Assembly (NCBI GenBank): GCA_021851325.1
Contig: JAJZDZ010000003.1
Coordinates: 62,001 to 126,000 of the forward strand
Source of the DNA: Pseudomonadota bacterium
Lineage (GTDB): Bacteria; Pseudomonadota; Alphaproteobacteria; Micropepsales; Micropepsaceae
Reading direction: 5' to 3'
Length of the DNA: 64,000 nucleotides
Part shown: in pieces, positions 36,201-37,438 of the stretch
How the letters are laid out: each line of letters begins with the position of its first letter
Numbering within the stretch: the stretch's first letter is position 1
Position numbers and translations under genes: made by a program
Notes under the pieces: generated by a model
The model's database searches: none
Seen by the model: the letters and a program-made list of their open reading frames with translations, nothing else
Told to the model about the DNA's origin: nothing

Positions 36201-36653
36201 GCCAGGACCACCAGTCAAAGCAATCAGGCCACTGCCGTGGGCTGCAAGAGTTGGGGTATCAACGTGTGGCCATTCTCCGGGACCACAGGTCAGATAGGCC
36301 GCACTTAGCAGCTTCACGAGATTGCGATAGCCATCGGGATTTTGCGCCAATAAGGGAAGTACGGGCGGCCTTTGCCGCATGCCGAGTCCAGAAATCTGGG
36401 GAGTTGGGTCCAGATCGACCGCGACCAAGGCACCAACGATAGGCTGCACGCCTTCTTTGGCCAAGGTCTCCGAAATGTCGAAAACCCCAAACAAGTTATT
36501 GTTGTCGCACACAGCGACCGCAGGCATGGCCAGAGACGCACAGAGCTTGGCAAGTTCTTTGGGGCGAACCGCACCCTCAAGGAGTGAATAGCAGCTCTTG
36601 ACGCGAAGATGGACAAAATTAGCGACTACCCTGCCCAACGCCTTTTCAGTCAT
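33210..36653 (-). CDS. dnaE: DNA polymerase III subunit alpha (replicative, DnaE1 type)
   Basis: 1147 aa. It is the catalytic subunit of the replicative polymerase. The N-terminal PHP domain (about 12-280) begins FVHLRVKSCYSLLEG, where E. coli has H-S-D in place of K-S-C, so metal binding there looks lost. The palm has MPDFDIDFCQERRDEV with catalytic D410 and D412. Finger and beta-binding regions follow (QEDVMSIARALGGYS, GYGFNKGHAAAYAQVAYQTA), then an OB-fold (ITLLAGTIIKK-type strand) and a C-terminal tau-binding part. AAGGA lies about 6 nt before the ATG. Base composition drops sharply upstream of about 33.6 kb within this gene. A 35-aa SOS-box peptide gene lies 97 bp upstream on the same strand. 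Confidence 0.96.
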   Translation of the reverse strand: MTEKALGRVVANFVHLRVKSCYSLLEGAVRPKELAKLCASLAMPAVAVCDNNNLFGVFDISETLAKEGVQPIVGALVAVDLDPTPQISGLGMRQRPPVLPLLAQNPDGYRNLVKLLSAAYLTCGPGEWPHVDTPTLAAHGSGLIALTGGPGGPLNTLLSGGQLDTASLILDQLTEIFGDRLYVELQRHGVAEERTAEHFLIDLAYDKSIPLVATNDVHFGREDMYEAHDALLCIADSTYVSQSDRRRLTREHRFKSPAEMSAQFADLPEALANTMEIAQRCAFRPKKHKPILPKFEPVSGLSPQDELKRLAQSGLERRLSESGLYAPREQYDERLEYELEIINRMDFPGYFLIVSDFMKWTRAQRIPVGVRGSGAASLVAWSLDITNLDPLRFGLLFERFLNPERISMPDFDIDFCQERRDEVVHYVQHKYGLDRVAHIMALGSLQARAAVRDVGRVLQLPLGLVDRIAKLIPNPPGKAVSLEDALSHEPRLSEIAQSEPAAVRLFNVVRKIEGLYRHASTHPAGVVIGDRPLDELVPLYRDPRSDMPVTQFDYEDAEKSGLVKFDFLGLKTLTVIAKAEELLARRGIELNTQSIAFEDRRTFDMLARGESVGVFQLEGQGMRDLMRKMKPDHINDLVALVALYRPGPMDSIPKYIACKNGREKPEYLHPALEPILKDTYGVMTYQEDVMSIARALGGYSLGDADLLRRAMGKKIPSEMALHRERFIAGAKQKGVDPNIAEQIFEQAAKFAGYGFNKGHAAAYAQVAYQTAYLKANYPVEFLAASMTLDIGNTDRLNIFRQEAQRLGITVRPPDINRSEAAFSCDHESANIFYALAAVKGVGRQAMDHVVEIRNSSGAFTSLADFARRIDPKLVNKRCFEMLVRAGAFDALNSNRHQLIESADAVLGDAARTSRERERGQSTLFDEIGNETVEIRLANVGEWPAHERLGEEFSAIGFYLSGHPLDNFDVALKRLQVTNYAQILEDRRMSFVTLLAGTIIKKSERRGKNDQAYAFVSFSDASGMFEVMFFPEALAAARPLLEPGKSVLLKVSASREGEELKLRAISATDLEQAAAQAGEGMRIFLEGVEPLGAIAAQLREAGKGIVTLVVPATDGQEAEIRLPKGFHVTAQLRSAIKSLPGVAAVEAV

Positions 36654-36750
36654 GCCGCATCCTTGCCCCTACCCACCGCACAACTACCCCGGACGGCAGG
36701 TATACGAAACGGTACATAACCGTCTTTCCACAGCCTATCGGCACTGCGCA

Positions 36751-36858
36751 TCAGGCCATTGCGACCAAACCTGCGGCCGCATGGGCCAGAACGAAGGTAG
36801 CCGCGATAAAGGTAATCAGCCCTGCTCCAGCGATCATGTCCGAAATCCAGATTTTCAT
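36751..36858 (-). CDS. 35-aa transmembrane peptide under apparent LexA control
   Basis: ATG 36858 is preceded by GAGGGG about 6 nt upstream and encodes 35 residues: MKIWISDMIAGAGLITFIAA, then a further hydrophobic half ending AAGLVAMA. Nearly the whole peptide beyond residue 8 is one transmembrane helix. The promoter region carries two GTTC-N7-GTTC boxes flanking a perfect TTGACA. I know no family match. By concept it resembles Caulobacter SidA, a 29-aa SOS-induced inner-membrane division inhibitor, but I claim no sequence homology. dnaE follows 97 bp downstream on the same strand and may be partly co-transcribed. Confidence 0.65.
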   Translation of the reverse strand: MKIWISDMIAGAGLITFIAATFVLAHAAAGLVAMA

Positions 36859-36890
36859 TGTGGTCCCCTCTTTGTGTGGCCCAGCTAAAT

Positions 36891-36926
36891 GTTCTTTTTT
36901 TGTTCTGTCAAGAACGGAAGTAGAAC
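36891..36926 (-). promoter_or_regulatory. Double LexA (SOS) box with promoter for the 35-aa peptide
   Basis: GTTC-N7-GTTC at 36891-36905 and its mirror GAAC-N7-GAAC at 36912-36926 both match the alphaproteobacterial LexA operator exactly, in opposite orientation. Between them, at 36906-36911, lies a perfect minus-strand -35 box TTGACA, so LexA bound at either box would block RNA polymerase. A -10 near 36884-36890 is weak (TTAGCT). Chance occurrence of two perfect boxes around a consensus -35 is unlikely. Confidence 0.75.
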
Positions 36927-36972
36927 ATTTTTCGGCTCTGAGCTGTTGCAGGGAAGCTTTCGAATCGTTAAG

Positions 36973-36990
36973 GTGTGTTATATAACACAC
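36973..36990 (+). promoter_or_regulatory. 18-bp perfect palindrome at the HicB-like gene promoter
   Basis: GTGTGTTATATAACACAC is a perfect 18-bp inverted repeat ending 7 nt before the ATG of the HicB-like gene. Its centre contains the likely -10 element (TATATA or TATAAC). HicB-type antitoxins with a DNA-binding C-terminus repress their own promoter, so this is the probable operator. No Shine-Dalgarno fits between palindrome and ATG, so the mRNA leader would be only a few nucleotides. Confidence 0.6.
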
Positions 36991-36997
36991 AATTCCT

Positions 36998-37438
36998 ATG
37001 GCAAAGCGCTACTATCCTGCCGTCATTGAACGATCCGAAGGAGGCACTATCGCCGTCTGGTTTCCGGATTTTCCGGACAGCGTTGCCGCGGCCAGTACGC
37101 AGGAAGCGGCCGTGCAGAAGGCGGAACAAGCTCTTCAGATGTCTGTATCCCGGCTGGCCGAAGCGAACAGGCCGCTTCCCGTCCCCAGCAACATGGAAGC
37201 CATAAAGCTGCCCAAAGCTTGCAGTGCCATTGCTTTCGCGCTGATCGGAGTTGAGCTTCCGGATCCATCCGAGCGGGTTAATATCTATCTGCCCAGAAGC
37301 CTGCTCGCGGAGGCTGACAACTATGCTGCAGCCCTTGGTATGAGCCGGTCCAGCTTCTTCGGCCTGGCAATATCCATCATGCTGGGCCGACGCCCGCCCC
37401 TGCCACAAGGGGGGGGTACTGGCGCTCGCCAGGACTAG
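36998..37438 (+). CDS. HicB family antitoxin-like protein (no HicA adjacent)
   Basis: 146 aa. The N-terminal about 60 residues match the HicB RNase-H-like fold ([40 protein letters not shown]). The C-terminal part [20 protein letters not shown] followed by [16 protein letters not shown] looks like a ribbon-helix-helix DNA-binding domain. HicB normally neutralises the small RNA-cleaving HicA toxin, but neither flank holds a HicA-sized dsRBD gene, so it is an orphan or a stand-alone regulator. It shares its upstream region with the LexA-boxed 35-aa peptide gene, divergently. Its end overlaps the lolD stop by 4 bp, convergent. Confidence 0.8.

Follow-up and report, generated by a model that had tools for sequence, protein, structure and literature searches.

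Which process does a predicted 35-residue membrane peptide serve when its gene lies behind LexA-type operator boxes and just ahead of the gene for the replicative DNA polymerase? To our knowledge, most alphaproteobacteria have no assigned damage-induced division inhibitor because such inhibitors are small, evolve quickly and are difficult to annotate. The question was raised by a 64,000-nt stretch of DNA (hereafter, the window) from the genome of an uncultured alphaproteobacterial genus, in which a preliminary description made from the letters alone had noted an SOS-type double operator driving such a peptide.

Layout of the peptide locus

The minus strand of the locus carries, in this order, a LexA-type box, a TTGACA hexamer, a second box, a Shine-Dalgarno sequence, the 35-codon open reading frame (ORF) and dnaE (Table 1). 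The preliminary description had reported two perfect GTTC-N7-GTTC boxes flanking a minus-strand TTGACA. Both are exact, with GTTCTTTTTTTGTTC on the plus strand and GTTCTACTTCCGTTC on the minus strand, and the hexamer fills the six-base gap between them completely. The box–TTGACA–box unit stands 32 nt before the ORF, whose product is MKIWISDMIAGAGLITFIAATFVLAHAAAGLVAMA. A 79-aa ORF with a GTG start that runs through the boxes was rejected as the gene; homologues start at the ATG. Across the intergenic region, a divergent gene on the plus strand (36998–37438) encodes a HicB-like antitoxin (PF15919, E 9.4e-20), which is a lone antitoxin as far as examined.

Table 1. Features of the peptide locus, in positions of the window
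Feature	Coordinates	Strand	Evidence
dnaE, replicative DNA polymerase III alpha, 1147 aa	33210..36653	-	NCBIfam NF004226, 1376.8 bits (cut-off 1002); Pfam domains
TGTGGA shortly past the peptide stop, resembling a DnaA box	36727..36732	-	At most 40 nt from the stop in 58/61 loci; 1.1% in shuffles
Gene for the 35-aa single-helix peptide, including stop (ATG at 36858, stop 36751-36753)	36751..36858	-	Homologues in 61/69 genus genomes; purifying selection in 21 pairs; AlphaFold2 single helix, residues 3-34, pLDDT 95.8
Shine-Dalgarno sequence AGAGGGG, 6 nt ahead of the ATG	36865..36871	-	Sequence inspection
Candidate -10 TTTAGC (weak), 16-nt spacer	36884..36889	-	By eye against TATAGG/TATACA at this position in the two closest relatives; no promoter from the scanner
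Proximal LexA box (the conserved one), minus-strand GAACAAAAAAAGAAC	36891..36905		Exact match; counterpart in 61/61 loci; motif in 30/30 lexA promoters examined
-35 hexamer TTGACA between the two boxes	36906..36911	-	Sequence; GTTCTTG, which includes the hexamer's first three bases, before the box in 57/60 loci
Distal LexA box, facultative	36912..36926		Exact match; exact second box of this orientation in 8/61 loci

Conservation of the peptide, its box and its link to dnaE

A profile built from 29 homologues and searched against 69 genomes of the genus recovered the peptide in 61 of them, with 47 matches among the 48 genomes of at least 90% completeness and at most 5% contamination. The eight genomes without a match are G019, G443, G425, G444, G428, G431, G031 and G036. 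Box and dnaE counts were made on one locus per genome (n = 61), leaving out the second copies in G034 and G435. Those second copies are diverged profile matches approximately 1.3–1.4 kb from the boxed copy (L029 in G034, and G435:C13:43737), and the one in G034 has no box.

In 60 loci, the 160 nt upstream of the ORF contain a proximal box (GAAC-N7-GAAC in this orientation), at 21–62 nt from the ATG. In the remaining locus (G439) it is found at −212, beyond an insertion, which brings the total to 61 of 61. For comparison, 5 boxes occur in the other 177,113 bp of these loci, or 0.0045 per 160 nt. All 60 loci that reach far enough have dnaE downstream on the same strand, as in the window, where the ORF had been placed directly before this gene. 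The gap between peptide and dnaE, extrapolated from the tblastn start, is at most 150 nt in 53 loci and 506–1023 nt in the other seven. The conservation is old, since most of the 30 loci of the first set have a dnaE with approximately 59–73% identity to that of the window. The 61 loci come from related genomes, however, and the counts are not independent events.

Several loci have been interrupted by other sequences. The seven with long gaps before dnaE are those of G032, G007, G010, G025, G424, G420 and G434; the inserted ORF in G032 encodes a DUF3788 protein, and the ORFs in G007, G010 and G025 look similar by eye. In G439, the insertion that separates box from ORF (L283:1302-1478) contains nested CTAGTGTC inverted repeats, which resemble small mobile elements. 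This insertion is a natural test of how far from its gene the box can tolerably lie.

Sequence and structure of the peptide family

Selection on the ORF was assessed in 42 of the 61 genomes, arranged as 21 non-overlapping close pairs. These pairs had 144 synonymous differences over 457 sites and 108 nonsynonymous differences over 1307 sites (pS 0.315, pN 0.083). Between the window species and its closest relative there are 16 synonymous and 2 nonsynonymous differences. By these counts, the peptide is evolving under purifying selection. This supports the assignment of the ORF as a conserved translated gene, so that the claim of a real 35-aa ORF in the window is upheld.

The peptides are 30–36 aa long across the family as assigned; a further ATG upstream in G441 gives a longer N-terminus. 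Almost invariant positions are W4 (60 of 61), D7 (all 61) and G11 (60 of 61). Among the angles tried, variability over residues 8–28 had its strongest periodicity at 100 degrees (p 0.008, 20,000 shuffles), as calculated from 45 non-redundant peptides after removal of near-duplicates from the 61. The conserved residues D7, A10/G11, L14, F17, S21, L24 and A28 form a stripe on the modeled helix, and F22 is conserved but off the stripe. Charge is absent from residues 8–28 in 58 of the 61 peptides, and the net charge is 0 in 51. The conserved stripe suggests a specific helix partner rather than a nonspecific pore.

Database searches with 29 members gave nothing beyond chance in Pfam (best E 0.069, one member) or PHROGs (best E 0.037, one member), no match in NCBIfam at E 1 and none in PADLOC at E 0.1. 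A description of the peptide was not found in the literature searched, which was mostly without subscription papers. The peptide is a new family of an already known kind.

Relatives beyond the genus are less clear. Searching the profile against 385 genomes of the class retrieved 5 genus members at E values of at most 5.2e-10. Another 34 genomes of the class scored E 0.001–0.1, about chance level (E 0.1, 380 genomes). Ten of the outside loci were inspected, and one (L205, genome G076, E 0.0068) has a LexA box upstream; taken by itself, its score against the profile is no better than chance allows for that many genomes. Three alignments were in use, with 29 of the 30 first loci (A1), 25 of the 30 (A2), and 18 of those 29 together with L205 (A3). 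The E value of 9.1e-10 for L205 is no confirmation because L205 is itself a row of A3. The locus (L205:1400-1581) has a 32-aa one-helix ORF (L205:1483-1578) with the pattern LKDIVAG, whose ATG lies 68 nt downstream of a LexA box and which has no dnaE beside it, the next gene being a different one. Genome G076 is the single genome of another, distant order of the class; the locus had no plasmid match, and the search gave no further clear relative. The L205 ORF could be either a remote relative or an SOS peptide that arose by convergence. What looks by eye like a terminator stem comes after it.

Probable LexA control and promoter architecture

The preliminary description took the boxes for LexA sites and proposed the organism's own lexA and recA genes as a check. 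A LexA match was found in 55 of 60 genomes, and all 30 of the loci examined among them carry the same motif ahead of lexA. In 26 of the 30 the site is the identical 15-mer GAACTAAAGTAGAAC, which also precedes the peptide in four of its 61 loci (G016, G018, G442 and G438). The check thus succeeded for lexA and fell short for recA, where an exact box is absent and one-mismatch sites were found, one of them 60 nt before the ATG. This shortfall at recA aside, the refuting outcomes named in the preliminary description that can be read from sequence did not occur. The LexA motif published for Caulobacter, as given in the accessible part of that report, agrees with the motif of this genus (PMC12700426). 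The peptide loci therefore carry an operator equal to lexA's, the mark of the LexA regulon in this genus, and LexA control of the locus is well supported at the level of the motif. We infer LexA binding and damage induction because the motif is identical to that before lexA.

The motif by itself is a poor guide. The pattern occurs 5 times in the window against 1.33 expected, and 2 of 100 shuffles also reach 5. A scan for further GTTC-N7-GTTC sites, expected to reveal the wider regulon, found no enrichment across the genome (91 sites versus 126 for the reversed control). Because a single site proves little when the bare motif is not enriched genome-wide, our case rests on position and conservation. 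In the window genome, 25 of the 91 boxes lie outside long ORFs and close to where an ORF of 80 aa or more begins, and most of these look like chance. Among the 25 are lexA and a DprA-like gene, along with two genes of which fragments score under the respective cut-offs, one ImuA-like (160 residues, 61.6 bits against 150) and one PA0069-like, of the radical SAM type (214.7 bits against 360).

Boxes near dnaE were also seen in other alphaproteobacteria. Three of 70 dnaE loci (L068, L080 and L084) have a GTTC-N7-GTTC box approximately 80 nt before dnaE, and L043 has one at −320. No peptide-like sequence was present among the short ORFs of L068, L080 and L084, and dnaE itself may be under LexA there.

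The motif GTTCTTG, which contains the start of the −35 element, is located 9–22 nt ahead of the box in the 57 loci that have it. In 17 loci, including the near relatives of the window species, the box occupies the −35/−10 spacer, its first base being 10 nt on from that of GTTCTTG. In another 24 loci this offset is 18 nt, and by eye the likely −10 overlaps with the second half of the box (TAGAAC). LexA would cover the promoter in either arrangement. Against the promoter proposed in the preliminary description, a sigma-70 scan of the window for at least 9 of 12 consensus bases returned 0 promoters here (shuffle mean 0.3) because the −10 read by eye is poor.

The preliminary description had made much of the paired boxes, and the joint conservation of box and peptide that it called for holds for the proximal box and not for the pair. 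The double operator was rejected as an essential feature because so few loci have a second box; in five of the eight that do, the distal box starts 21 nt, or two helical turns, from the proximal one. Approximately 97% of Caulobacter SOS promoters have a single box, according to the available text of that study (PMC12700426), and we thus regard the double operator of the window as a local elaboration, which perhaps gives tighter repression.

Candidate functions of the peptide

With moderate confidence, we propose that the gene encodes an SOS-induced checkpoint peptide that would bind one membrane partner and delay division in the manner of SidA, an explanation drawn from sequence and analogy. 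LexA on the proximal box, between −35 and −10, would block transcription, and RecA would relieve the repression by triggering LexA self-cleavage. A short mRNA leader (approximately 20–60 nt) would then lead to a peptide of 30–36 residues that would insert in the inner membrane as a single uncharged helix. The conserved stripe would dock onto a single, specific membrane protein, which most likely belongs to the septal peptidoglycan machinery (FtsW, FtsI or FtsN), and this binding would delay division, as with Caulobacter SidA. The transcript would probably continue into dnaE. The gene, its box, its linkage to dnaE, the selection on it and the conserved helix face are supported by the sequences; from them we infer LexA binding, induction, membrane insertion, the partner and the effect.

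We favor a division checkpoint because the nearest precedents, SidA and YneA, act on FtsW. SidA of Caulobacter crescentus is described in the accessible text as a LexA-controlled, 29-aa inner-membrane protein that inhibits division through FtsW (PMC4211646). Compared by description, the peptide shares with this alphaproteobacterial inhibitor a LexA-type box, a length of approximately 30 residues and a single predicted membrane helix, which places it in the SidA-like class on descriptive likeness. It differs from SidA in its link to dnaE and in its genus-wide conservation. The Gram-positive SOS division inhibitors YneA, SosA and ChiZ are also small, damage-induced membrane proteins with one helix. 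In the available part of one report, YneA reaches and binds FtsW via its transmembrane segment, and low-confidence models also place SidA, SosA and ChiZ on FtsW (PMC13396833). However, YneA has a LysM domain outside the membrane, whereas the window peptide is the helix alone. DidA, another damage-induced, one-helix membrane division inhibitor of C. crescentus, differs in its length of 71 aa and in its induction by DriD rather than LexA (PMC4211646, as far as its accessible text goes).

The checkpoint explanation is weakened by the fact that a conserved helix face is no more telling of the divisome than of any other membrane partner or of self-association. The peptide could, for example, be an SOS-induced small subunit or regulator of a respiratory, transport, protease or repair-associated membrane complex, which a single helix with one conserved face would suit equally. 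We consider such a role rather unlikely, as no neighbor except dnaE was conserved among the genes tested (the HicB-like gene was matched in 4 of 30 loci).

A membrane-depolarizing peptide of the TisB kind, which would lower the proton motive force and leave cells dormant and tolerant, would share the LexA control, the size and the single helix. TisB of Escherichia coli is a 29-aa, SOS-induced type I toxin. Its activity requires charged and polar residues within the helix as well as a positively charged residue at the C-terminus, as stated in the accessible portion of the source (PMC11449926), and the window family has almost no such residues, as the charge counts above attest. The same portion notes that the importance of charge varies among type I toxins, IbsC having one dispensable charge (PMC11449926). 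Furthermore, the leader of the window family is short and its Shine-Dalgarno sequence exposed, and no antisense RNA was recognized at the locus, as positions 36600–37050 gave no match in Rfam, a search that covers described RNA families. We judge a TisB-like activity unlikely.

We also judge it improbable that the operator serves dnaE, with the SOS response raising the replicative polymerase and the peptide acting as a leader or coupling ORF of a peptide–dnaE operon. The invariant downstream position of dnaE, mostly within 150 nt, would be expected of such an operon, and no stem followed by a T-rich run was found in any of the 53 short gaps. Yet a mere leader would need neither purifying selection nor an amino acid sequence conserved along a helix face. 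In the seven loci where insertions split the peptide from dnaE, moreover, the box keeps its distance of 21–62 nt to the ATG, which argues that the peptide is the promoter's own gene. Chance boxes beside a meaningless ORF, a reading to which the lack of genome-wide enrichment of the motif lends itself, are very improbable and were rejected because the box, ORF and synteny are conserved over 61 genomes and the ORF is under purifying selection.

The TGTGGA motif past the peptide stop reads mostly TGTGGATAG or TGTGGATGG in the loci that have it. In other alphaproteobacteria, 13 of 70 loci likewise have DnaA-like 9-mers in the 600 nt ahead of dnaE. DnaA may regulate dnaE, judging from these motifs.

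Implications for the SOS response

As a checkpoint peptide, the family would provide a candidate inhibitor that is conserved in dozens of species and has both a defined operator and a defined helix face that can be mutated. Its fixed link to dnaE raises the question of whether the genus boosts its replicative polymerase under SOS. As no terminator was found before dnaE in the short gaps, SOS transcripts may reach this gene and raise the level of the polymerase. We tentatively suggest, as a possibility well short of the checkpoint proposal in confidence, a peptide–dnaE SOS operon. A single LexA-controlled transcript would supply both a new checkpoint peptide, which would stop division or hit another single membrane target, and more polymerase, and would so couple a pause in division with the polymerase needed to finish replication. 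Together with L205, the family may hint that SOS membrane micropeptides are a widespread, unannotated layer of the alphaproteobacterial response to DNA damage.
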